DNA from: Bacteroidales bacterium
GTDB taxonomy: Bacteria > Bacteroidota > Bacteroidia > Bacteroidales > Marinilabiliaceae
Assembly: GCA_017960905.1 (NCBI GenBank)
Contig: JAGCYH010000011.1
Coordinates: 62,001 to 126,000, forward strand
Length of the DNA: 64,000 nt
Direction of reading: 5' to 3'
The position numbers were made by a program, and so were the translations under genes. Below, piece by piece: positions 4,039 to 43,200 of this stretch. Position 1 is the first letter of the stretch; every line of letters begins with the position of its first letter. Under the pieces are notes generated by a model, which saw nothing but the letters and a program-made list of their open reading frames with translations, made no database searches and was not told the DNA's origin.

Positions 4039-4836
4039 ATGGCAACAATTCTTGACGAAATAGTAGAGAACAAACGGCTCGAGACGGCGGAACTGAAAAA
4101 ACGTGTTACCTTGTTGCAGCTTAAGCAAAATCAGCTTTTTGAGCGAAAAACCTTTTCGCTCAAAAACGCGCTTCTGCAGAGCAAGACGGGCATCATAGCT
4201 GAGTTCAAACGCCGCTCGCCATCGAAAGGCGACATACACCAAGGCATTGACCCAAAGGACGTTGTGCCGCTTTACGAGCAGTATGGTTGCACCGGTGTAT
4301 CGTGCCTGGCCGATAATAAATACTTCGGCGGCAGTGCCGCCGATGTGGCTCAAGCCCGCGCCAATCTGACACGTACGCCACTGTTGTTCAAGGAGTTCCT
4401 CACCGACCCGTACCAACTCTACCTGGCCAAGTCGTCGGGTGCCGATGTTATACTGCTTATAGCTGCTTGTCTGCAAAAAACTCAGTGTCAGGAACTTGCG
4501 CTTGAAGCGCAAGCACTCGGACTGCAAACGCTCTTGGAAGTCCATTCCGAAGACGAGCTCTCGTACTACGATGCCAAATACATTGACATTCTGGGTGTTA
4601 ATAATCGGAATCTGAAGATTTTCAAAACCGACATTGGCATTTCAAAATCGCTCATAAAAAATATGCCCGACGATGCTGTAAAGATTTCAGAATCAGGCAT
4701 TTCGAATCCGCAGACGGTTGTAGAGCTCAAGCATCTCGGTTTCAACGGTTTCCTGATGGGCGAGAACTTTATGAAAGAGGCTAATCCGGGCATAGCGCTC
4801 AAAAAATTTATTGAGGAGGTTGAACGATGCTTGTAA
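4039..4836 (+). CDS. trpC: Indole-3-glycerol phosphate synthase
   Basis: TrpC closes the indole ring by converting carboxyphenylamino-deoxyribulose phosphate to indole-3-glycerol phosphate. The TIM-barrel motifs AEFKRRSPSKGDI (phosphate and substrate contacts), LFKEFLTDPYQ (catalytic Lys) and LGVNNRNL, and the phosphate-binding SESGI, are all present. A GTG two codons upstream (4033) is open, but the ATG at 4039 fits the family's MATILDEIV start. It is separate from trpF, and the two overlap by 10 bases. Confidence 0.97.
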   Translation: MATILDEIVENKRLETAELKKRVTLLQLKQNQLFERKTFSLKNALLQSKTGIIAEFKRRSPSKGDIHQGIDPKDVVPLYEQYGCTGVSCLADNKYFGGSAADVAQARANLTRTPLLFKEFLTDPYQLYLAKSSGADVILLIAACLQKTQCQELALEAQALGLQTLLEVHSEDELSYYDAKYIDILGVNNRNLKIFKTDIGISKSLIKNMPDDAVKISESGISNPQTVVELKHLGFNGFLMGENFMKEANPGIALKKFIEEVERCL

Positions 4837-9900: not shown

Positions 9901-10836
9901 ATGAAGACAGCCGAACTGCTGAAAGAGTATATATGGATAGTGCAGACCATAAAGCGCTATGGCAAGATATCGTTTGACGAGCTCAACGACAGATGGCTCG
10001 ACACGACACTGAGCGACGGCGCGGCTATGCCGCGCACGACTTTCAACCGGCACCGTGAATCGATCGAAGAACTATTCGGCCTCAGAATAGAGTGCGACAG
10101 CCACGACGGCTACAAATACTACATCAGCAATCAGAACGAGCTGTCGGACAGGTCGATAGCCAACTGGATTTACAACACCATGAGTGTGAGCGTCGAACTG
10201 ATGGACAACCACAGCATCAAAGACCGCATACTGCTAGAGAATGTGCCTTCGGGCAACGACTTCCTGCATCAGATTGTCGAAGCCATGAAGAACAACAATA
10301 TCATCAGCGTGAAGTATCAGCGCTACAACACCTTCAAACCCAAGGACTTTCGCATGGCGCCATACTGCGTCAAACTATGGCACCAGCGGTGGTATGTGCT
10401 CTGCAAACTCGACAACGGCAACATGGGCATCTTCTCGCTCGACCGCATGCGCGAATTGTCGGTTACAACCGACAAGTTCGAAATCGATAGCGATTTCGAC
10501 GCCGAGGCATATTTCCGCGACTGCTACGGCATAGCTGCCAATGTGTTCATCGACACCGAGCGCATCGTAGTGCGCGCCTTCGAAGAAGAGGCCTTCTACA
10601 TACGCGACCTACCGATGCACCACACGCAGAGGGTTGTCGCCCAGACTGAAGAATACACTGACTATGAGATACAAATGCGCCCCACAATCGACTTCTCGGA
10701 GTTCCTCGTGTCGCGTTACTACCGCGTGAAAGTACTTGAACCTCAGTGGCTTGCCAACGAGGTTTACAACATGCATCTGCGCACTCTCGAAATGTACGAC
10801 GCCGACGAGGAAGAAGAACAAGAGGAAGAGAATTGA
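9901..10836 (+). CDS. WYL-domain transcriptional regulator
   Basis: This 311-residue protein has an N-terminal winged helix-turn-helix (about 1-65, with FDELNDRWLDTT and RTTFNRHRESIEELF) and a central WYL domain with the motif WHQRWYVLCKLDNG around residues 160-175. WYL regulators bind nucleic-acid-like ligands, and several (BrxR, CapW) repress phage-defence operons through inverted repeats. Its place inside an island with helicase and nuclease genes fits that role. A TACATTTG -7 box is at 9867-9874 without a clear -33. The acidic C-terminal tail (DADEEEEQEEE) is unusual but harmless. A candidate target is the palindrome found at 8039, 14945 and 18784. Confidence 0.88.
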   Translation: MKTAELLKEYIWIVQTIKRYGKISFDELNDRWLDTTLSDGAAMPRTTFNRHRESIEELFGLRIECDSHDGYKYYISNQNELSDRSIANWIYNTMSVSVELMDNHSIKDRILLENVPSGNDFLHQIVEAMKNNNIISVKYQRYNTFKPKDFRMAPYCVKLWHQRWYVLCKLDNGNMGIFSLDRMRELSVTTDKFEIDSDFDAEAYFRDCYGIAANVFIDTERIVVRAFEEEAFYIRDLPMHHTQRVVAQTEEYTDYEIQMRPTIDFSEFLVSRYYRVKVLEPQWLANEVYNMHLRTLEMYDADEEEEQEEEN

Positions 10837-10898
10837 TGCGGCAGGGCTGTGGCAAAGGATGCTTTTTAGCTTTTGTAGAAAAAAAGACAAAAATAATT

Positions 10899-10929
10899 TT
10901 TGAATTATTAAACCATTTTAATATATTTG
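10899..10929 (+). promoter_or_regulatory. Perfect Bacteroidota promoter for the structured RNA
   Basis: TTTG (10899-10902), 19 bases, TATATTTG (10922-10929). The first RNA hairpin begins five bases after the -7 box, and the same 5-base offset is found at the second copy of this RNA (42468). Confidence 0.8.
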
Positions 10930-10933
10930 TGAT

Positions 10934-11222
10934 GTTTTTATCAGCCCGAAGCTCTTCGGGCTGCATGATAAAAACAGACATATTTTTATAAGGCGTTACT
11001 TAGCGCTTTGTGTTTGACTCATTGGAATCTGGCAGTTTCAAAGTATCGTCAAATGATCAAAGCAATATTAACGCCTACGTAATATGTATTATCACAGACC
11101 AAAAGTCTGTAAGATATACATACAACGTGGGCTTTGGTGTTGCTCGTTCTTGACGATAGGGCAAGCCAGAGCCTCAATGAGTGGGACGAGCAGCAAAGTA
11201 AAATCCCACGTTTCTTATTTTT
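10934..11222 (+). ncRNA. Structured non-coding RNA, copy A
   Basis: About 289 bases between the WYL gene and the helicase gene have no ORF but fold into a series of stems: a 5' hairpin (10934-10975, outer GTTTTTATCA with TGATAAAAAC and an inner GCCCGAAG stem); GGCGTTA (10992-10998) with TAACGCC (11069-11075), enclosing GCTTTG with CAAAGC; ATGTAT/ACAGAC with GTCTGT/ATACAT (11084-11121); and a final long stem CGTGGG (11126-11131) with CCCACG (11205-11210), enclosing TTGCTCG with CGAGCAG, then a T-rich tail. A second copy lies on the minus strand at 42198-42468, and the 5' hairpin differs in sequence but keeps its pairing. It may be the known Bacteroidales-1 RNA class; this could not be checked. 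Confidence 0.8.
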
Positions 11223-11323
11223 ATATGCCTCGTGTTTTTTAATTATTGTTGTTCCGGTTTTGGGGTTGCGGAAACGTGTGGTCGAAATATAATAATCGGC
11301 TAAACTTAAAAAAGAAAAGACTA

Positions 11324-14300
11324 ATGATGCAAAACAACAACCAGGCAGAGGAGTTCATCTACAACACATTACGGGAGAAATCGATATTTCCATACTCAAA
11401 AGAACTTTGTGAGTGTATCGAAAACACTGCGAAATCACTACTGAGCAGCAAACCCAATGCGAAAGAGCCTGTGCTATTGCTCGGCAAAATCCAATGTGGC
11501 AAAACCAACACATTCGAAAACATTATAGGATTGTGTTTCGACCATGGAATTGATGTGTGCGTGGTGATGACAAAAGGGACCAAAACACTTGCCTCTCAAA
11601 CAATTAACAGATTACTAAAAGATTTTAGATGGTTTAAATCCGACGGCACTCTAAACCAAAAAGGCGTAGTGGAGATTTACGACATTCTTGAAAGGTTCAA
11701 AAAAAACGGACTTCAAGAGAGTGTGACGAAACGAGCCAAAATTATTATTGTATGTAAAAAAGAGACCACAAACATTAAGCACCTTATTAATCTATTTAAC
11801 GTTAAATCGCCATATCTCAAAAAGAAAAAAGTACTGGTAGTTGACGACGAGGCCGATTTTGCAAGTTGCAATTTCCGCAAAATACGCAATATTAGTTCGA
11901 TGGCCAAAATCAGCAGTCAAATAATGGAGTTTTTAACAATTCCCGAATATTGCCGTTATTTGCAGGTAACGGCCACGCCATACGCACTCTATTTGCAGCC
12001 CAACGGCTATATTAATCTCAATGCCGACGGTCTTGTGCCTCATTTCAAGCCGCGCCGCACTGTGCTTGTCCCTGTCCACGATAAATACGTGGGTGGAATT
12101 CAGTACTTTGAAAAATCAGAAGATGGCAATTCGTTGTACTCCAATCTTTTTGTGCCGGTAGACGAAAAGTGCATCACCATAATGGGCAAAAAAAATGAAC
12201 GATATACCAATACTGGTATTGCTTCTGACAACCTCAAAAGCATCACCAAAACTCTTGTTTACTATTTTACCGCCGCGGCCATCCGTTCTGTACAAAAGGA
12301 GAAACAAAACTTGATTTGCCAAACAAGTTGCCTTATACACGTGGACACAGACAAAGACGCTCACGAATGGCAGAAAAAACTAAGTATTAGACTTATAGAT
12401 GATATCAAACGTGGTTTCCTTTACGAAATCAACGACAAAGCCGACCTGCGGTTAGAAGAGATGTACGACATTGCTTACGACGACTTTAAAGAATCAAACC
12501 AAAAAGCCAAAAACGAGGGTATAGAAAACATCGATTTGCCGTCGAAACGAGAGGTGAGAGACCGAATTATCAGAATCTTCAACGACAAAGATTATTCGGT
12601 AAACATCATTAATTCAGACCACGAAGTATCAGAATTGCTAAACAAAGACACAGGCCAATTGAACCTCAATAACACCGCTAATATTTTTATAGGCGGCAGC
12701 ATCCTCGACCGTGGAATCACCATCGACAATATGCTGTGTTTCTTCTACGGGCGCGACCCGAAAAATTTCCAGATGGACACCGTTTTGCAGCACGCCCGAA
12801 TGTATGGCAACCGCAGCAAAGAGGATATGGCGGTAACTCGCTTCTTTACCACCAACAGCATTTACATTATATTAAAACGAATCCATCAAATCGACGAAGA
12901 TTTGCGCCAACGTCTCAGCCAAATGGTTGACGATGAGGATATTGACGGCACTTTTGCAACAGAGTTTATCGGATACGACAAGCACATCAAGCCTTGTGCC
13001 GATTCCAAGATAAAATTTACCAACATTTCAATGATAAAGCCCACACAGCGTATTGTTCCTATCGGATTTCAAACAGGTACAAAAAACGTCATCTCAAAAA
13101 CCATCGACGAAATTGACTCGATTATCAAATCAGCACCAGGTTTTGTTAAAAATTCTTTCTTCGAGATGGATTCTTCATTGGCTAAGGATATTATCATAAA
13201 AATCCGCAGCACATTTATCTACGACGACACCCCATTATGCACATTCAACAAAGGCCTTGAATGGGACGAGAACGAAATGCTTGCCGCAATAGAATATTCG
13301 CTCAAGGGCAAAGACTCGCAAAAAGTGCTTATTCACTATGCCGACAACCGCAATATGAGTCGCGTCAGAGAAAACGGTAAATACATTGACGCTCCTGACG
13401 ACGGAAACAACGACACTGCACCTTCACGCGCCGCAGCTACCGATTATCCTGTGCTTATGCTACTACGACAAAACGGATTGAAAAAAGACGGATGGCGCGA
13501 TACACCATTCTATTGGCCTGTTTTGATTGTTCCGCAAAGAATCAAAAAAGTGATGTATGCATTGAACGGTGCAGTGTTGAAAGACAAAGAAATTATTACT
13601 GACGAGGGTTTCGGAATTAACCCCGACGGTGAAAACGTACTGAGACTAACACTTGCAAGTGAACCATTTTGGAATATACTTTTTGGTTTAAAAGACATAG
13701 AGCTTAGAGATATTGACCAAAATACAGCATCAAGATACATCGAACAGTCTCCGACATCGCCTGTCAAATACAAAATACGCACGGACATTCCAATAGATGA
13801 AAGCCAAATTTCAGGAATTGAATCGTACAATAACGGCGTATTCCCTTTCGTATTGCGAAAATTCGACTATATTCTATTTCGTAACTCGCATGACCATTCT
13901 GGTAGTTTGTTACTTGTAAAACTATGGCCATACACCGAGGATTCCATTGTACACTATTCGTTGATGAATGACACCGATAATCTTGCCGATATGTGCAACA
14001 ACGTTACTCCATACTCAGAAAAGACTATATGTAATTGGGGTTTGGAATATCCAATAGATAGTGTTGTTGGCTACAAACTCAACAAAGCCGACCAAAGCAG
14101 ATACGAAATAATAAAAGCGCAATACCTCGAAGGAAAACTTATAAAGCCGGAAGATGTACCACTAATCGAAAACAAAAAAATAGACAGCAACGATAATTCA
14201 GAAACGGTCGTAGGCAACAATGATGATATCCAACCCGACCAGACAGACCGACTCAATAAGGTTGAATTGGATGTAAAACACAGCGAACAACCCTCTCAGA

Positions 14301-14626
14301 CCCTTCGCATAACCTGTCCCGACGGACTGGTTATAGAGAGTCATAAAGCCACGGCGACATTTGTCGAAGCAGTGCTGAAAGCTGGTGTTGAGCGTGTAAA
14401 CCGCTTAGGTATAGAGCGTTGTGGTGTGGCGCTTATAGCGCCCACCAAAGACGCCAAGTACAACCAGACGAAGCTTGAATCGGGCGAATATCTATTCACA
14501 AATCTCAGTACTTCAGACAAGAAAAAGGTTCTCGACACGATAAATGCCGGACTAAAGCTCGGCTGGCGCGTGGAACTGGTAGAAAAAAAGGCTCTATACA
14601 GAGCGTTTCCGCACAACCGCCTGTAA
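11324..14626 (+). CDS. Z1-type superfamily II helicase, predicted defence protein
   Basis: The 1100-residue protein has helicase motifs in order: Walker A GKIQCGKT (about residue 53), VLVVDDEADFAS (about 173), VTATPYA (about 215), GGSILDRGITID (about 456) and QHARMYGNR (about 488). The layout matches Z1-domain proteins, which occur in predicted restriction-like systems. After residue 980 there is a separate small domain (LRITCPDGLVIE to WRVELVEKK) that I cannot name. Two ATGs (11324, 11327) are possible starts. The 0-frame ends at 14626, but an A AAA AAG slip site at 14584-14590 could extend the protein into a domain-2-like fold encoded to 14937. The nuclease gene at 15051 follows on the same strand. 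Confidence 0.8.
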   Translation: MMQNNNQAEEFIYNTLREKSIFPYSKELCECIENTAKSLLSSKPNAKEPVLLLGKIQCGKTNTFENIIGLCFDHGIDVCVVMTKGTKTLASQTINRLLKDFRWFKSDGTLNQKGVVEIYDILERFKKNGLQESVTKRAKIIIVCKKETTNIKHLINLFNVKSPYLKKKKVLVVDDEADFASCNFRKIRNISSMAKISSQIMEFLTIPEYCRYLQVTATPYALYLQPNGYINLNADGLVPHFKPRRTVLVPVHDKYVGGIQYFEKSEDGNSLYSNLFVPVDEKCITIMGKKNERYTNTGIASDNLKSITKTLVYYFTAAAIRSVQKEKQNLICQTSCLIHVDTDKDAHEWQKKLSIRLIDDIKRGFLYEINDKADLRLEEMYDIAYDDFKESNQKAKNEGIENIDLPSKREVRDRIIRIFNDKDYSVNIINSDHEVSELLNKDTGQLNLNNTANIFIGGSILDRGITIDNMLCFFYGRDPKNFQMDTVLQHARMYGNRSKEDMAVTRFFTTNSIYIILKRIHQIDEDLRQRLSQMVDDEDIDGTFATEFIGYDKHIKPCADSKIKFTNISMIKPTQRIVPIGFQTGTKNVISKTIDEIDSIIKSAPGFVKNSFFEMDSSLAKDIIIKIRSTFIYDDTPLCTFNKGLEWDENEMLAAIEYSLKGKDSQKVLIHYADNRNMSRVRENGKYIDAPDDGNNDTAPSRAAATDYPVLMLLRQNGLKKDGWRDTPFYWPVLIVPQRIKKVMYALNGAVLKDKEIITDEGFGINPDGENVLRLTLASEPFWNILFGLKDIELRDIDQNTASRYIEQSPTSPVKYKIRTDIPIDESQISGIESYNNGVFPFVLRKFDYILFRNSHDHSGSLLLVKLWPYTEDSIVHYSLMNDTDNLADMCNNVTPYSEKTICNWGLEYPIDSVVGYKLNKADQSRYEIIKAQYLEGKLIKPEDVPLIENKKIDSNDNSETVVGNNDDIQPDQTDRLNKVELDVKHSEQPSQTLRITCPDGLVIESHKATATFVEAVLKAGVERVNRLGIERCGVALIAPTKDAKYNQTKLESGEYLFTNLSTSDKKKVLDTINAGLKLGWRVELVEKKALYRAFPHNRL
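14584..14590 (+). other. Candidate -1 programmed frameshift site A AAA AAG
   Basis: The heptamer lies in the zero frame as GAA AAA AAG, the same slippery sequence used by Escherichia coli dnaX. A -1 slip continues as EKKGSIQSV and then an open, Pro/Ala/Thr-rich linker to the domain at 14683-14937. A GCTCT-ATAC-AGAGC hairpin follows immediately, and TGTAAC/GTTACA (14622-14645) can form a second stem. The alternative is a simple one-base mutation in a run of seven As. Confidence 0.5.
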
Positions 14627-14937
14627 CTACTAACGGGGCGTTACACCCAGTTGCGGCAGCCACAGCCGACGGTCCGTTCTTCATGCCCGTAAACGAAGCG
14701 CGGTTCAATTCCGGACTGATGGTTCTCAGTGGCGACATTGAGTCCGGCACTATACGTAAAGGCGATCGAGTGAAAATCTCAAACGGCATGCAACTCGCTG
14801 TGTATCGTATAGTTGTGGGCGGCGAACAACGCCAGCAAGCTACAGCCGGCGAAGAGGCAAGTCTGGCATTCAGTGGCGTCGAGCGTGGCGAGGAGCATTT
14901 GTTCAGCAAACCGGGTCTGACAGTATCAAAAGATTAA
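14591..14937 (+). CDS. EF-Tu domain-2-like segment, probable -1 frame extension of the helicase
   Basis: The -1 frame is open from the slip site at 14584-14590 to the TAA at 14935-14937, adding about 115 codons. After a linker rich in Pro, Ala and Thr comes GPFFMPVNEARF, then GDIESGTIRKGDRVKI and AGEEASLAFSGVERGE, which line up well with domain 2 of translation factor EF-Tu (PFLMPVEDVF, GRIERGVVKVGDEVEI, AGDNVGLLLRGV). This beta-barrel binds RNA ends in the translation GTPases. An internal ATG at 14683 would start inside the fold, so independent translation is less likely. Coding similarity begins before that ATG, which supports a fused product. There is no GTPase domain. Confidence 0.6.
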
Positions 14938-14944
14938 AAAAAAA

Positions 14945-15034
14945 TCAGCCTGTACCATTATTTGGTACAGGCTGAAAATATCTTTGCAAACAATAAACAA
15001 AAAGAATAACCAGCCGACGGCGAAAGCCGCCGGC
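14945..15034 (+). promoter_or_regulatory. Palindrome-promoter-leader module, copy 2
   Basis: TCAGCCTGTACCA (14945-14957) and its complement (14963-14975) form a 13-bp palindrome. The TTTG at 14961-14964 is followed after 14 bases by TATCTTTG (14979-14986). A leader hairpin GCCGACGGC-GAAA-GCCGCCGGC (15013-15034, one A-C mismatch) lies before the nuclease start. Every spacing equals that of copy 3 at 18784-18875. Confidence 0.8.
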
Positions 15035-15050
15035 ACAAAAACCTAAGACT

Positions 15051-17171
15051 ATGGAGATAAAAGACAGCAAAGGCGCAGTAGGCGAGGCCTACGACCTCGT
15101 AACCACCAAAGAGAACGCCCTCGACATTCTCTCGGGGCGGAAAAAAGTTGAATTCAGAAAGGCCAACAAGTTCTACGATAGTGTTTTTCTCGATGTAGAT
15201 GATAGTGGCAAAATGAAAATCAAAGAAATATTTGCTGTTCATTTTCATGACAGCAACAACACTTGGTTTTTAGATGTATTTGCCTGTTCGATAGCTATTT
15301 ATCATATGCATCCGGACGAAAAGGAAACAATGAAATATCTGCGTGAAAACAATCTGCATGAGATGGATGAAGTTTTAGCTAAAGCAAAAAACTTACCCAT
15401 TGATTCCGAAGAGGTTGAATGGTATTATTCATTAAAAATCGATGGCTATATAGGCACAAATCTGAATGTCAATGAGTTGCCGTCTATTATTGATAAAGTT
15501 AATTTTGACGATTATGTCGGTGATAGCAGCAGTAAAAAAGCACCAAAAAAGACGTCTAAAAAGGAAAATAAAAAGACGCAGCCAACCGTTGAAATTAACT
15601 ATGATGTAGAGGAGCAAGGCCTTCTGAATAAGAATTTTTGGAACATGTACAAAGATTCAGAAAAAGGCAAAAAAGCGATAGATTTATTTAATCCTGAGCC
15701 AGAGAAGTTGGCTGAATCCATCGAAAAACTAGGAGAATACGCTCAAAATGAATTAAATGACGAAAATAGTCCGCATTATATGTACTATGATATTTGGGCT
15801 AATTTTGAGGAAGAGGAAGAGTTTAATAAAAAACTGCAAACTAATACTCGCGAATCATTTTCCGAGTTCATTGACATGTTTTATGTGAAAGAAGCAGATT
15901 TCTCAGACGAAAACGAGATTAAATTTACTGGTCGTATAATATTACCACAACAAGAATACCGTTGGATGGCGAATTCTATCGATTCAATCTCTTTTTATCT
16001 GTATTATAATTATGATTTTTTCAAACCAATCTTCAACAAACTGCGTTTCGACATCATTCGGAGAAACTGTGATGCCATTGGGTTGCGATTACCGCCAATT
16101 CCACGTTCGAATGACTATAAGGAATATTTGATGTATTATTATGATGTATGCGTTGCTTTCAACAATTTTCAGAAAAAAAATAAACTGACTGATGCTGAAT
16201 TTTGCGCTTGCCTTTACGACTACGCACCAATGTATATAAAAGAGGAGAGTTTGTCAGAACTGCCAAAACCAACAAATGTCTGGATTACAGGTGCTGCACC
16301 TGGTGATTTTGACATTCTCGATAACCTTGGTAAAGGAGACAATTCGGGCAACCCAACACTTGTCTGGGCATGTAACGAACGTACAAAACGTGGTGATATT
16401 GTGATAATATATTGCCGTACGCCACGCAGTTGCATTCATTCTATTTGGCGGGCAAAAAACGATGGTATTTTTAATCCGTTCGACTATTACCATTGCCGCG
16501 TGAATGTTTGTGAAGGCATAAGAGTCCCGCCTATAACTTCGAAAGAATTGAAAGCCGACCCATATTTCTCGCAAGTGCCAATAGTACGCAAAAACTTACA
16601 AGGCATTAAGGGAGTGGAGTTTACAGCAGAAGATTATTCTGAATTGTTGCGATTCATAGCGCAGAAAGGAGGCGATGTTTCGGCTTTGCCGAAACTGTTC
16701 GAGGCTGGCAATTACAATTTCGGTGAAGTGAAAATAGAGAAAGATGTTGAGGAGAAAATACTCATTCCGATGCTCGAAAAACTTGGTTACTCATCTGATG
16801 ATTGGACTCGCCAATTGTCGCTTAAAGCAGGACGTAATCAAAAAGCTATTCCCGATTTTGTGTTTTTCGCCAAAGGCGAAAGACATTTCGAGAATGCGCC
16901 TTTTATCATCGAAGCGAAATATGATATGGCTTATATAACTGATCAGCAAAATGCTTTTACTCAAGCACTTTCGTATGCGCGTATGCTGCGCTCTAAGTTA
17001 ATGGGTATTTGCGACAAAAATCGTATAATTCTATACAATGTAAATGATGATGGTTCTTGCAACCGCAATCAGCCTATTTACGAAAACCATTGGGAGACAA
17101 TATATTCTGATGAGTTAGAAGGTGCAAGGCTAAAAAAACTTATCGGCAGAGATGTCGTAAAAAATATATAA
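15051..17171 (+). CDS. EVE-domain, PD-(D/E)XK nuclease (predicted modification-dependent restriction)
   Basis: The 706-residue protein has three recognisable parts: an N-terminal PUA/ASCH-like region (about 1-140, with SGRKKVEFRKANK); an EVE-like domain (about 408-530, NVWITGAAPGDFDIL, KRGDIVIIYCR, IHSIWRAK), a fold that reads modified bases; and a C-terminal HsdR_N-like nuclease (about 565-690) with IPDFVFF and FIIEAKYD as the PD and ExK elements. A Lys-rich linker (KKAPKKTSKKENKKTQ, about 164-180) follows the first part. Together with the helicase upstream this suggests restriction of DNA with altered bases; that is inference from domain content. It has its own promoter module and is followed by a terminator at 17221. 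Confidence 0.75.
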   Translation: MEIKDSKGAVGEAYDLVTTKENALDILSGRKKVEFRKANKFYDSVFLDVDDSGKMKIKEIFAVHFHDSNNTWFLDVFACSIAIYHMHPDEKETMKYLRENNLHEMDEVLAKAKNLPIDSEEVEWYYSLKIDGYIGTNLNVNELPSIIDKVNFDDYVGDSSSKKAPKKTSKKENKKTQPTVEINYDVEEQGLLNKNFWNMYKDSEKGKKAIDLFNPEPEKLAESIEKLGEYAQNELNDENSPHYMYYDIWANFEEEEEFNKKLQTNTRESFSEFIDMFYVKEADFSDENEIKFTGRIILPQQEYRWMANSIDSISFYLYYNYDFFKPIFNKLRFDIIRRNCDAIGLRLPPIPRSNDYKEYLMYYYDVCVAFNNFQKKNKLTDAEFCACLYDYAPMYIKEESLSELPKPTNVWITGAAPGDFDILDNLGKGDNSGNPTLVWACNERTKRGDIVIIYCRTPRSCIHSIWRAKNDGIFNPFDYYHCRVNVCEGIRVPPITSKELKADPYFSQVPIVRKNLQGIKGVEFTAEDYSELLRFIAQKGGDVSALPKLFEAGNYNFGEVKIEKDVEEKILIPMLEKLGYSSDDWTRQLSLKAGRNQKAIPDFVFFAKGERHFENAPFIIEAKYDMAYITDQQNAFTQALSYARMLRSKLMGICDKNRIILYNVNDDGSCNRNQPIYENHWETIYSDELEGARLKKLIGRDVVKNI

Positions 17172-17220
17172 AAACTTGTTGTTCATAACTCAGTGTTTTA
17201 AGGTGTTAATAATTTTAATG

Positions 17221-17251
17221 TTGGGCGGTGCTAAAGCACCGCCCAATTTTT
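17221..17251 (+). terminator. Terminator of the nuclease gene
   Basis: TTGGGCGGTGC (17221-17231) pairs perfectly with GCACCGCCCAA (17236-17246) around a TAAA loop and is followed by five Ts. Confidence 0.9.
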
Positions 17252-17252
17252 G

Positions 17253-17344
17253 TTTATGTTTGGATTTATTACAAAAAACTGCCGATTTATGTTTGGATTT
17301 GTTACAAAAAATCGTCGATTTATGTTTGGATTTATTACAAAACG
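17253..17344. repeat. Three tandem 33-base repeats over an ATPase promoter
   Basis: Units at 17253-17285, 17286-17318 and 17319-17344 (the last shortened) begin TTTATGTTTGGATTT and continue RTTACAAAA. TTTG and CAAA in each unit face each other. The repeats are contiguous, so this is not a CRISPR array. Confidence 0.88.
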
Positions 17345-17354
17345 TATTATATTT
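17324..17354 (+). promoter_or_regulatory. Promoter of the second ATPase gene
   Basis: The TTTG of the third repeat unit is followed after 19 bases by a perfect TATATTTG ending at about 17354, about 27 bases before the ATG. The -33 element is therefore part of the repeat, and each upstream unit carries a copy of it. Confidence 0.75.
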
Positions 17355-17380
17355 GCCGCGTAATATAAAGATTATCAGTT

Positions 17381-18718
17381 ATGTTTGAGAGAAATGCATT
17401 ACGATGGCTCCGCGAATGGAAAAACAAAGCCGACCGAAAGCCACTTGTGCTCCGAGGAGCACGACAAGTAGGGAAGACGTCGCTAGTATATTCATTTGCA
17501 AAAGAGTTCGATGTTTTTATGCCGTTCAATTTAGAAACACCTGAAGACGCATCGCTTTTTGAGAAGGAAATGCCTGTAAATCAGTTGTTCGACTTGATGT
17601 GTATGGTAAAACAAGTCACCAAAAAGGGTAGTATGCTTGTTTTTCTCGATGAGATACAAAATTCGCCTTATGCAATTAAGGCGTTGCGATACTTTTACGA
17701 ACAGTTGCCCGATGTTTATGTAATAGCTGCAGGATCGCTGTTAGAGACAATGATAAACACTCAGGTATCGTTCCCTGTGGGCAGAGTTGAATATATGGCG
17801 CTCCGACCAGCTACGTTCTGCGAATTTCTCACAGCAATTGGCGAACAGCCTATGCGTCAGTTGGTTGAGCAGATGGCAGTGCCAGAAGTGTTGCACCAGA
17901 AAGTGATGACACTGTTCAACTTATATACGCTTGTCGGTGGCATGCCAGAGGCAGTTGCAAATTACGCCGAGAAGCGCGATGTGGTTGCTCTCAGTGCTGT
18001 CTATCAGACACTTATAGCTGGGTATGCCGATGATGTTGAGAAATATCAAAAAGATGGTCCGATGCGTAATGTGCTGCGCCTGATTATTCAGAAGGGTTGG
18101 CAATCGGCAGCATCGCGCATAACTTTCGAACACTTCGGCAACAGCGCATATAAGAGTCGCGAAATAGGCGAAGCTATGCGTACTTTGCAGAAAACCATGC
18201 TGTTAGAACTTGTATATCCAACCACAGACACTGCAGTGCCCTTTGCTGAGAACTTGAAGAAACGGCCAAAATTGCTTTGGTTGGACACAGGTCTTGTTAA
18301 CTATGCCGCAGGTGTTCAGTCTGAATTGTTTGGCAAAACAGACATTTCTGATGTTTGGCGTGGTTGCATAGCGGAACACATTATCGGACAGGAACTTTGG
18401 GCTACATCGCCATTGTTTCTGAACCGTCGCAGATTTTGGGTGCGCGAGGAGAAAAACTCGCAAGCCGAAATAGATTTCCTTTACATGAGCCGTTATGGCA
18501 CCGTGCCAATAGAAGTGAAATCAGGACATATCGCTCATCTGAAATCCTTGCAAATGTTTATGCAGTTGTCCGGATTACGACATGCTGTGCGTTTTTGGCC
18601 AGGACCAATGCTGACTGACACGATAACTCTAAACAATGGTAACAGTTTCATTCTGCACAACTTACCTTACTATTATGCGGGCCAGATTGATAAACTGACA
18701 AATACCTATTTCGAATAG
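17381..18718 (+). CDS. AAA_14/DUF4143-type P-loop ATPase
   Basis: A 445-residue ATPase with Walker A GARQVGKTS (about residues 26-34), Walker B MLVFLDEIQ, sensor-like IAAGSLLE, and a C-terminal DUF4143 domain with the nuclease-like segment QAEIDFLYMSRYGTVPIEVKSG. The ATG at 17381 is the only start close to the promoter. The gene lies between the nuclease and amidoligase genes but has its own promoter and tandem repeats. The repeat sequences differ from those of the other two ATPase genes. Function unknown; energy-dependent action on DNA or protein is the usual guess. Confidence 0.9.
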   Translation: MFERNALRWLREWKNKADRKPLVLRGARQVGKTSLVYSFAKEFDVFMPFNLETPEDASLFEKEMPVNQLFDLMCMVKQVTKKGSMLVFLDEIQNSPYAIKALRYFYEQLPDVYVIAAGSLLETMINTQVSFPVGRVEYMALRPATFCEFLTAIGEQPMRQLVEQMAVPEVLHQKVMTLFNLYTLVGGMPEAVANYAEKRDVVALSAVYQTLIAGYADDVEKYQKDGPMRNVLRLIIQKGWQSAASRITFEHFGNSAYKSREIGEAMRTLQKTMLLELVYPTTDTAVPFAENLKKRPKLLWLDTGLVNYAAGVQSELFGKTDISDVWRGCIAEHIIGQELWATSPLFLNRRRFWVREEKNSQAEIDFLYMSRYGTVPIEVKSGHIAHLKSLQMFMQLSGLRHAVRFWPGPMLTDTITLNNGNSFILHNLPYYYAGQIDKLTNTYFE

Positions 18719-41721: not shown

Positions 41722-42138
41722 TTATGGTAGCTCGTAGTATTCTATTCTTATTGGTATCTCATTTTTAGTTCGACTTCCAATAAGTCTGAACTCAATGCCA
41801 ACTTTACACGATTTACAAAGCTTTGTGATTGACTTTAAATCAGCATCAGATTTATTAGAGTCTTTGAAATTTTTAATCATTTCATTTTTCATCTCTTTAA
41901 TCATTCTTTGATCTTTTACATTTGAAATAGAATAAAGCTCACTCTCATCTACTCTACATACATATTCAATATAGTCACCATGCCTCTGTATGCTAGTAAC
42001 GTCAATCCCTTCGTCAATATTTATCGGGCACTCTCTATTAGACGCCCAAATATCAATTTTCAAACGAACTTCGGACCAACCGCCCATTAAATGAACAATT
42101 ACCAACACAGCTACAACAAAATATAAAAACTTTTTCAT
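41722..42138 (-). CDS. Small membrane-anchored hypothetical protein
   Basis: A 138-residue protein with an N-terminal hydrophobic helix (MKKFLYFVVAVLVIVHLMGG) and a polar domain with three cysteines (RECPIN, EYVCRVDE, KLCKSCK). No family recognised. Coding is AT-richer than the neighbours. Its upstream region holds the minus-strand RNA copy B. Confidence 0.55.
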   Translation of the reverse strand: MKKFLYFVVAVLVIVHLMGGWSEVRLKIDIWASNRECPINIDEGIDVTSIQRHGDYIEYVCRVDESELYSISNVKDQRMIKEMKNEMIKNFKDSNKSDADLKSITKLCKSCKVGIEFRLIGSRTKNEIPIRIEYYELP

Positions 42139-42197
42139 ACCTATTTTATTATTCTGTTGTTCCCTAACAGATTGTTAATTATCAAACATTCAGCCAT

Positions 42198-42468
42198 ATA
42201 AAACAAAAAACGTGGGAACTTTACTTGTTGCTCGTCCCGCGTTTCGAGGCCTTGGTCTGCCCTTCCTGTCAGAATCGAGCAACACCAAAAGCCCACGCTT
42301 TAATGTATATATGACAGACTATTTAGGTCTGCGATAATACATACCAGCTGGACATTACGTGCTGCTTTGTTATTGACAGGAAATAGAAACGACCAAGTTT
42401 CGAAACGCCAAGAACAAAGCGTTAAGTAACGCCTTATTTTATATGTCTGTTCTTATAGAGATAAGAAC
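42198..42468 (-). ncRNA. Structured non-coding RNA, copy B
   Basis: The minus-strand counterpart of the RNA at 10934-11222. The TATATTTG -7 box is at 42473-42480 (complement), and the first hairpin GTTCTTAT-CTCT-ATAAGAAC starts five bases later (42449-42468); its sequence differs from copy A but its pairing is kept. Then come the shared AGACATAT, AAGGCGTTACTTA-CGCTTTG, the TATGTATTATC-CAGACC/GTCTG hairpin and the final CGTGGG...CCCACG stem enclosing GTTGCTCG/CGAGCAAC, with a T-rich tail. No -33 TTTG is clear. Two copies with compensatory changes make a functional RNA likely. Confidence 0.8.
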
Positions 42469-42534
42469 AATACAAATATACGTATATTTTCTAGTTTGGA
42501 TATTATTTGGGCTGATTTTTCATTTTTATTAAAT

Positions 42535-42659: not shown

Positions 42660-43200
42660 AAATCGTTAGGAACACACGAAAAATTCCCCGTTCGGCGTAG
42701 CCTCCAGGCTGCGTCGAAGCTAAAAGCAAGGCTCCTGCCTTGCGAATAAAAGATTGTGTCTCCCTTTCAGGGCTCTGAATGTTGTATGTGGCATTGTAGC
42801 TGGGGTTTACACCCCAGCCTATTTTATATCGCCCCTTCGGGGCTCATGGCATTGTACACAGCAAAGGCTGCCACAATGTGACAGCCCTACAACACACAAT
42901 ATGCTAAACAATGCGAGGCCAGAATGGCCAGAATGGCCGGTACGGCCACACTACCGCATGAGCCTGCGAGCGCCCGAAGAATTGGTGAGGAAGGCGGAGA
43001 GAGCAAAACACCGTTCAAGCGACGCGCGTTTGTTTTGCGTCGCCGAACGAAGCAAATTCTTAGCGAGGCGGGTCCGCGGCGAGTTCTTTTGCAACTTTTC
43101 TCACGGCGAGAAAAGTTCTTTTTTTGAAAAAAAAAAACAAAATAAGAGACGTTGCACGCAACGTCTCTACCCTTTCATGGCAAAAAATATTTAACCACGG
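42660..43200. repeat. Intergenic repeat cluster
   Basis: This gene-free stretch is a mosaic of hairpin repeats: CCCCTTCGGGG and TGGGGTTTACACCCCA units of a dispersed Bacteroidota type, a GGCACGGCCAC-like segment, a 93-base unit at 43078-43170 nearly identical to 54344-54433, and the palindrome GAGACGTTGC-AC-GCAACGTCTC at 43146-43167. Plus-strand ORFs across it carry no recognisable family. Confidence 0.8.

Follow-up and report, generated by a model that had tools for sequence, protein, structure and literature searches.

Cobalamin riboswitches use a kissing loop, in which an upstream-domain loop base-pairs with the hairpin loop of the expression platform, and in the plasmid systems ColE1 RNAI/RNAII and R1 CopA/CopT variable loops are kept complementary, with specificity between related elements. 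Type III toxin-antitoxin operons and similar RNA-terminator-gene operons place a promoter, a structured RNA, a terminator-like hairpin and a gene in that order. Bacteroidales-1 RNA (RF01693) is a structured RNA of Bacteroidales that was described by comparative genomics (PMC2864571).

We analyzed a 64,000-nucleotide stretch of a Bacteroidales genome, hereafter the window, which carries two copies (A and B) of an RNA that resembles each of these systems in part. Like the cobalamin riboswitch (RF00174), it appears to be a 5' leader with a kissing contact between a sensor domain and an expression platform, but three loop-loop helices are present, two of them hypervariable, instead of one, the RF00174 model does not match it, and the genes downstream of the RNA class are not B12 genes (107 proteins). 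The order of elements is that of a type III toxin-antitoxin operon; however, there are no tandem RNA repeats, a hairpin (P8) links the RNA to the start region of the gene, and among the 107 downstream proteins neither a ToxN/AbiQ/CptN-type toxin nor any dominant family was found. The downstream proteins fall into dozens of unrelated families, and the RNA therefore cannot partner one of them as a type III antitoxin does. As in ColE1 and R1, variable loops are kept complementary, except that a single transcript contains both partners, and a search of the own genome revealed no second RNA. Finally, the RNA shares with Bacteroidales-1 its structured nature and its host order, but it gave no match to that model at E<=10 and precedes very varied genes. 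Altogether, this RNA belongs to an undescribed, large and intricately folded class, and we consider it likely that the class forms a switchable 5' leader of about 350 nt in the mRNA of the adjacent gene, governing the expression of a horizontally exchanged accessory gene.

Fold of the two copies in the window

A blast search of copy A against its own genome showed that copies A and B are homologous (73% identity, E=1.4e-30). An earlier, sequence-only reading had placed them at 10934-11222 on the plus strand and 42198-42468 on the minus strand; the presence and strands of both were borne out, while the ends were too short, the element reaching about 11273 and 42154. That reading had included neither the loop-loop helices, three in number, nor P8 further downstream. 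It had rightly recognized a common -7 box, TATATTTG, which is found at 10922-10929 in copy A and at 42480-42473 on the minus strand in copy B, but the distance from this box to the first hairpin is 4 nt in copy A and 3 nt in copy B rather than the 5 bases that it gave. The 31 kb between the two copies was considered as a mobile element with inverted ends, and this was rejected because the segment holds housekeeping genes, e.g. dnaA and ligA.

The stems were tested by comparing the true partners with partners shuffled among copies; the resulting z values include kinship, which matters for the weaker helices Pout and P1a and less for X1 and X3. The first hairpin, P0 (outer stem z=9.5), spans 10934-10975 in copy A (GTTTTTATC/GATAAAAAC plus AGCCCGAAG/CTTCGGGCT) and 42448-42469 in copy B (TGTTCTTAT/ATAAGAACA), where the sequences are wholly unlike and yet paired, in agreement with the earlier reading. 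In 27 of 90 copies P0 contains a conserved asymmetric motif, GAAG...GGnGGG, possibly a site for protein binding or one akin to a kink-turn; in copies A and B, P0 is a plain hairpin. P1 (z=10.6) and P2 (z=16.3) follow, with P1 of copy A formed by GGCGTTA (10992-10998) and TAACGCC (11069-11075) and, within it, P2 formed by GCTTTG (11005-11010) and CAAAGC (11058-11063) together with TTTGA/TCAAA. The corresponding strands of copy B are GGCGTTAC (42433-42426) and GTAATGTC (42358-42351) for P1, and GCTTTGTT (42420-42413) and AACAAAGC (42371-42364) for P2. The GGCGTTA/TAACGCC stem had been thought to be kept in both copies; it is present in copy A and replaced in copy B, with pairing intact. GCTTTG/CAAAGC, CAGAC/GTCTG and CGTGGG/CCCACG, on the other hand, do occur in both, as had been stated. 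The 5' strand of P1 has a second covarying partner in a local hairpin, P1a (z=6.3).

Downstream of P1, copy A has the P3 hairpin (11083-11122; TATGTAT..ACAGAC/GTCTGT..ATACATA), at the place of which copy B has the stem CAGAC/GTCTG. Next comes P4 (z=10.6), which encloses P5 (z=9.9). In copy A, P4 consists of AACGTGGG (11124-11131) and CCCACGTT (11205-11212), P5 of GTTGCTCGTTC (11139-11149) and GGGACGAGCAGC (11183-11194), and a T-rich, terminator-like run at 11211-11222 ends this part; in copy B, P4 (42211-42297) is CGTGGG (42297-42292) with CCCACG (42216-42211), and P5 is GTTGCTCG (42283-42276) with CGAGCAAC (42234-42227). Across copies, 98.1% of P4/P5 cells were paired versus 94.1% with shuffled partners and at most 48% on sliding, and double-change cells numbered 40 versus 10.2. 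At least five T were found in the 8 nt after P4 in 104/110 copies. P4 and the T-run thus have the form of a putative intrinsic terminator, i.e., a G+C-rich hairpin followed by a T-run, and we infer that transcription may indeed terminate there. The whole is closed by a weaker helix, Pout (own score 6.44 versus 6.02 shuffled, sd 0.10; z about 4.3), which in copy B (42195-42445) joins CATATAAAA (42445-42437) to TTTTATATG (42203-42195) and uses the T-run in pairing. An alternative hairpin inside P5, CTTCTGCGTTGC/GCAATGCGAGAG, was weak (z=3.2, and 1.6 among deviating copies) and was rejected.

In related genomes, each helix exceeded its shuffled-partner controls. Members of the class turned up in 76 of 393 Bacteroidales genomes, and because of this recurrence and of the behavior of all helices against these controls, a chance origin is excluded. 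The proposal of a structured RNA with compensatory changes, of an undescribed class, was upheld by these controls and by the lack of an Rfam match.

Promoter, downstream gene and the P8 hairpin

In 143 distinct loci, the next downstream ORF was on the same strand as the RNA in 129 of 135 cases, at a median gap of 68 nt, and the upstream ORF in 78/135 only. The motif TAnnTTTG, which is the Bacteroidota -7 box, was found 20-125 nt upstream of P1 in 89/110 copies, with 50 occurrences within one 10-nt bin versus 0.63 expected. Between RNA and gene, no second promoter was evident, with 4 occurrences of TAnnTTTG versus 4.5 expected in 103 gaps. The promoter of the gene is therefore the one that precedes the RNA. 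The RNA lies between a promoter and a same-strand gene with no second promoter between them, which is the general mark of a cis-regulatory 5' leader, and on these positional grounds its assignment as the 5' leader of the downstream gene appears well supported.

A conserved sequence beyond the T-run, GGGGAATCTG, was spotted in copies with unrelated flanks. It complements CAGATTCCC, which comprises the P4 3' strand and the bases preceding it, and lies within the loop of a short hairpin, P8 (z=5.9). The P8 loop and the P4 3' strand covary (own score 6.28 versus 5.39 shuffled, z=8.2; z=8.1 in a second test), and from the end of P8 to the start codon, assigned by a simple rule, the median distance is 17 nt. 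In copy B, P8 (42154-42170, minus strand; CTGTT/AACAG) lies 15 nt before the ATG at 42138, and its loop AGGGAAC complements GTTCCC of the P4 3' strand. In copy A (11252-11273; TTCCG/CGGAA), the loop TGGGGTT (11261-11267) complements AATCCCA of the P4 3' strand; this match is short (7 bp, one of them GU), and P8 is separated from the annotated ATG by 50 nt. The P4 3' strand thus has two covarying partners, the P4 5' strand and the P8 loop, which compete for it in mutually exclusive helices. We take the two-partner strands of P4 and P1 as marks of a switch, and they suggest that the leader may indeed act as one. The P8 loop is synthesized after the T-run and is itself unable to block termination there, and the 17-nt spacing leaves the start region free.

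These results bear on the possibility of a free-standing small RNA, as which the earlier reading had treated the element. In that case the RNA would end at the T-run, and the neighboring gene would have a promoter of its own. Such an RNA would have its own promoter and a terminator-like 3' end (at least five T of 8 in 104/110 copies), and both are present here. However, the same-strand gene at a median of 68 nt (129/135), promoter motifs in the gap that are not above chance, and a conserved gap hairpin that is complementary to P4 and keeps a fixed spacing to the start codon all argue against it and for a 5' leader, and we regard a separate small RNA as unlikely.

The proteins encoded downstream of the RNA (107 proteins) belong to dozens of families, many being without any family. 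BspA-type LRR proteins (LRR_5) were the commonest (8/107), followed by lipoproteins, outer-membrane (OMP) and Ig-like proteins, together with defence-type products, e.g. a HaeIII endonuclease, DndC, PD-T4-6, AbiGi and, under copy A, a Z1 helicase. No common pathway was found among the 107 proteins, and the gene context therefore suggests no ligand or signal. The gene under copy A (11324-14626, plus strand) encodes a Z1-domain helicase (PF10593) that is type II helicase-like in PADLOC; the placement of copy A beside a defence-type helicase had been reported correctly, but it is one case only, the downstream genes elsewhere being very varied. Copy B precedes a gene for a 138-aa membrane or exported protein (41722-42138, minus strand) with no Pfam match.

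Several observations were made on the surroundings of individual copies. The helicase gene lies in a plus-strand segment of the window (9901-18718) that encodes a WYL regulator, the Z1-domain type II helicase, a protein of 706 aa that matches HSDR_N weakly and one that matches PDC-S01 strongly (PADLOC 9e-170), and that we consider a candidate restriction-type defence cassette. An Acido-Lenti-1 RNA (RF01687), a family described from Acidobacteria and Lentisphaerae (PMC2864571), matched at 42799-42844 on the plus strand of the window with 52.1 bits versus a gathering score of 37. This match, in a Bacteroidales genome, lies on the strand opposite to copy B and about 320 nt upstream of it. On an 85-kb IMG/VR contig (L030, 648-8967), the RNA stands before an operon for an EF-Tu-like GTPase, an HSP70/MreB-like protein and a HerA-like ATPase, which is possibly an undescribed defence operon. 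Behind the RNA at two other loci (L101 and L102), the gene for a surface-type protein has a middle third of about 55% identity between flanks of 97%, as under diversifying selection or recombination. Finally, each of two loci (L116 and L117) contains a pair of RNA copies on opposite strands, separated by about 5 kb.

Loop-loop helices and their codes

Loop 1, atop P2, consists of X1, the small hairpin P6 (z=10.1) with X2 in its loop, and X3, and loop 2, atop P5, consists of X3', GGGCAA, X2', GGCCT and X1', so ordered that X1-X2-X3 of the one complements X3'-X2'-X1' of the other in three loop-loop helices. In copy A, loop 1 (11017-11052) has X1 ACTCATTG at 11017-11024, X2 TCTGGC at 11028-11033 and X3 TATCGTCAA at 11044-11052, and loop 2 (11150-11182) has X3' TTGACGATA at 11150-11158, X2' GCCAGA at 11165-11170 and X1' CAATGAGT at 11175-11182. 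The same elements of copy B are X1 GCGTTTCGA (42408-42400), X2 CTTGGTC (42397-42391) and X3 TTTCCTGTCA (42383-42374) in loop 1 (42374-42408), and X3' TGACAGGAA, X2' GACCAAG (42257-42251) and X1' TCGAAACGC (42247-42239) in loop 2 (42239-42271).

X1 and X3 are 8 bp each, and AU, UA, GC and CG were all seen at every position in 115 copies, which carried 92 distinct X1' and 99 distinct X3' codes. Nevertheless, pairing is kept: in these copies X1 had 834 Watson-Crick, 30 GU, 3 AC and 21 other pairs, and X3 had 798, 23, 5 and 22, respectively. With a free offset allowed equally in own and shuffled pairs, the own scores of X1 and X3 were 7.38 and 7.18 of 8 versus 4.30 and 3.56 shuffled, and pairing, at 96% and 94% in register, did not exceed 37% after a one-base slide. 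X2 likewise exceeded its shuffled control (z=16.9). The loci had been selected with a P4/P5 model and a 20-base probe, and because loop 1 lies outside the search model, the loop-loop pairing was not selected by the search.

At times new codes appear in an otherwise conserved RNA. At one locus in two species (L083 and L098; 7.6 kb of synteny, 92.7% identity), 16 of 29 X positions differ, as opposed to 12 of 179 positions elsewhere in the RNA, with the partner always altered too, and a further copy (L257) combines X1 of one of these orthologs with X3 of the other, an arrangement that a single exchange of the inner part would yield. Counter to a simple rule of hypervariability, another pair (L068 and L077) keeps its codes at 82% identity, and four loci (L134, L152, L178 and L186) have common codes at 83-92% identity in unrelated genomic places. 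Together, these cases indicate inheritance of the codes within lineages, with occasional replacement of whole blocks.

The replacement of codes at the orthologous locus and their recombination in L257 would also fit an action of X1 and X3 in trans, addressing another copy, a small RNA or DNA beyond the private lock. In the own genome, however, X1 followed by X3 of copy A was found in exactly two places, its loop 1 and the complement of its loop 2, and X1 to X3 of copy B in its loop 1 only, i.e., no target elsewhere was found for either copy. The codes always match inside the same RNA, and they are retained in the pair at 82% identity. Thus, a role in trans is improbable, and a lock of each RNA on itself fits these data better. 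As for the reason behind such private codes, we suggest tentatively that the class may be a genome-wide, diversity-selected, self-addressed family of leaders. A private 8+8-bp code would then lock the expression switch in the leader of each accessory gene, those for defence and surface proteins included, and variation would keep the copies orthogonal or allow them to evade RNAs of phages or plasmids that act in trans.

We also considered that the structure acts as DNA, e.g. as a folded site at which mobile gene cassettes recombine or insert. The RNA does occur with unrelated flanks, as at the four loci with common codes. Moreover, at three loci that are otherwise 97-98% identical (L104, L105 and L106), the RNA is followed by a small first ORF of 84 aa or 98 aa (around 4140-4460), which lies upstream of a conserved BspA-type LRR gene and is fully swapped. 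At two others (L109 and L114), the RNA and the start of the downstream gene are identical and the promoter and P0 are unrelated, as if RNA and gene had moved without them; there and in L115, homology begins exactly at the 3' strand of P0. However, GU pairs in X1 and X3 far exceed AC mismatches on the transcribed strand (53 versus 8), which indicates selection on this strand as RNA. The promoter position and the distance to the start codon are fixed, and no association with recombinases was seen, making an action as DNA very unlikely.

Distribution, proposed mechanism and significance

A covariance model of the 3' domain (R1), built from a first alignment that included four blast relatives, found the class in the 76 genomes mentioned above, representing 40 of 206 genera. 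In a phylum-wide sample of 395 genomes, two had matches, both of them Bacteroidales, and none was found outside this order among the sampled genomes of the phylum. Carrier genomes have up to 12 copies, and that of the window has 5. In named genomes, an exact search with a 20-base probe gave at least 119 stretches, and all 80 among the matches listed fit the model. Among the matches listed were Bacteroides, Phocaeicola, Prevotella, Hallella, Xylanibacter, Paraprevotella, Muribaculaceae, Paludibacteraceae and Salinivirgaceae, as well as three records under Firmicutes names (L126, L156 and L165), which are metagenome bins and probably mis-binned. Other members of the class led to copies on plasmids of two human gut isolates, Phocaeicola dorei CL06T03C03 and P. 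vulgatus CL10T00C06, within an unannotated gap; copy A itself had no match in the plasmid search. Two queries gave no match in a phage search, and one viral contig, of 85 kb, carries the RNA.

Rfam 15 assigned no known class to either copy: in the window no family scored above gathering at the element (4227 families tested), nor did any at six further loci (L269, L030, L083, L025, L062 and L070), and up to E<=10 both copies gave chance hits alone, far below gathering scores. The earlier suggestion of Bacteroidales-1 RNA fell with this result. That the RNA is a divergent form of an already described class, such as Bacteroidales-1, the cobalamin riboswitch or 6S, is hardly credible in spite of the host order shared with the first and the kissing loop of the second, membership being refuted at the sensitivity of the Rfam models. 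An earlier description of the class was not found in the literature within open-access papers, with subscription papers and preprints outside this search.

We propose that transcription of the leader would start at the TAnnTTTG promoter, that P0 would be made first, followed by the P1-P2-P6 domain, and that X1, X2 and X3 would then catch the emerging 38-nt loop of the P4/P5 hairpin. This docked state may favor termination or hold the fold closed. In molecules that read through, the P8 loop could take the P4 3' strand (CAGATTCCC with GGGAATCTG), undoing P4 and the docked loop, and the P8-paired state would be that of the read-through mRNA beside its start codon. The docked, terminator-like fold and the P8-paired fold would exclude each other, and expression would depend on their balance, possibly set by a signal or by a protein that recognizes the conserved core, with control by the leader on transcription, translation or both. 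The private codes of X1 and X3 would make each of up to 12 leaders in a cell dock to itself.

The fold is unusual in that the loop of a terminator-like hairpin is clamped by three loop-loop helices, two of which vary freely, and the private codes permit a direct test of orthogonal RNA switches, for which the plasmid copy of P. dorei CL06T03C03 and P. vulgatus CL10T00C06 is a natural object. The class is present in about a fifth of the sampled Bacteroidales genomes and absent from Rfam. As a leader class, it would give its carriers, in the human gut and the rumen, a common layer of control over accessory genes, including those for phage defence and surface proteins.
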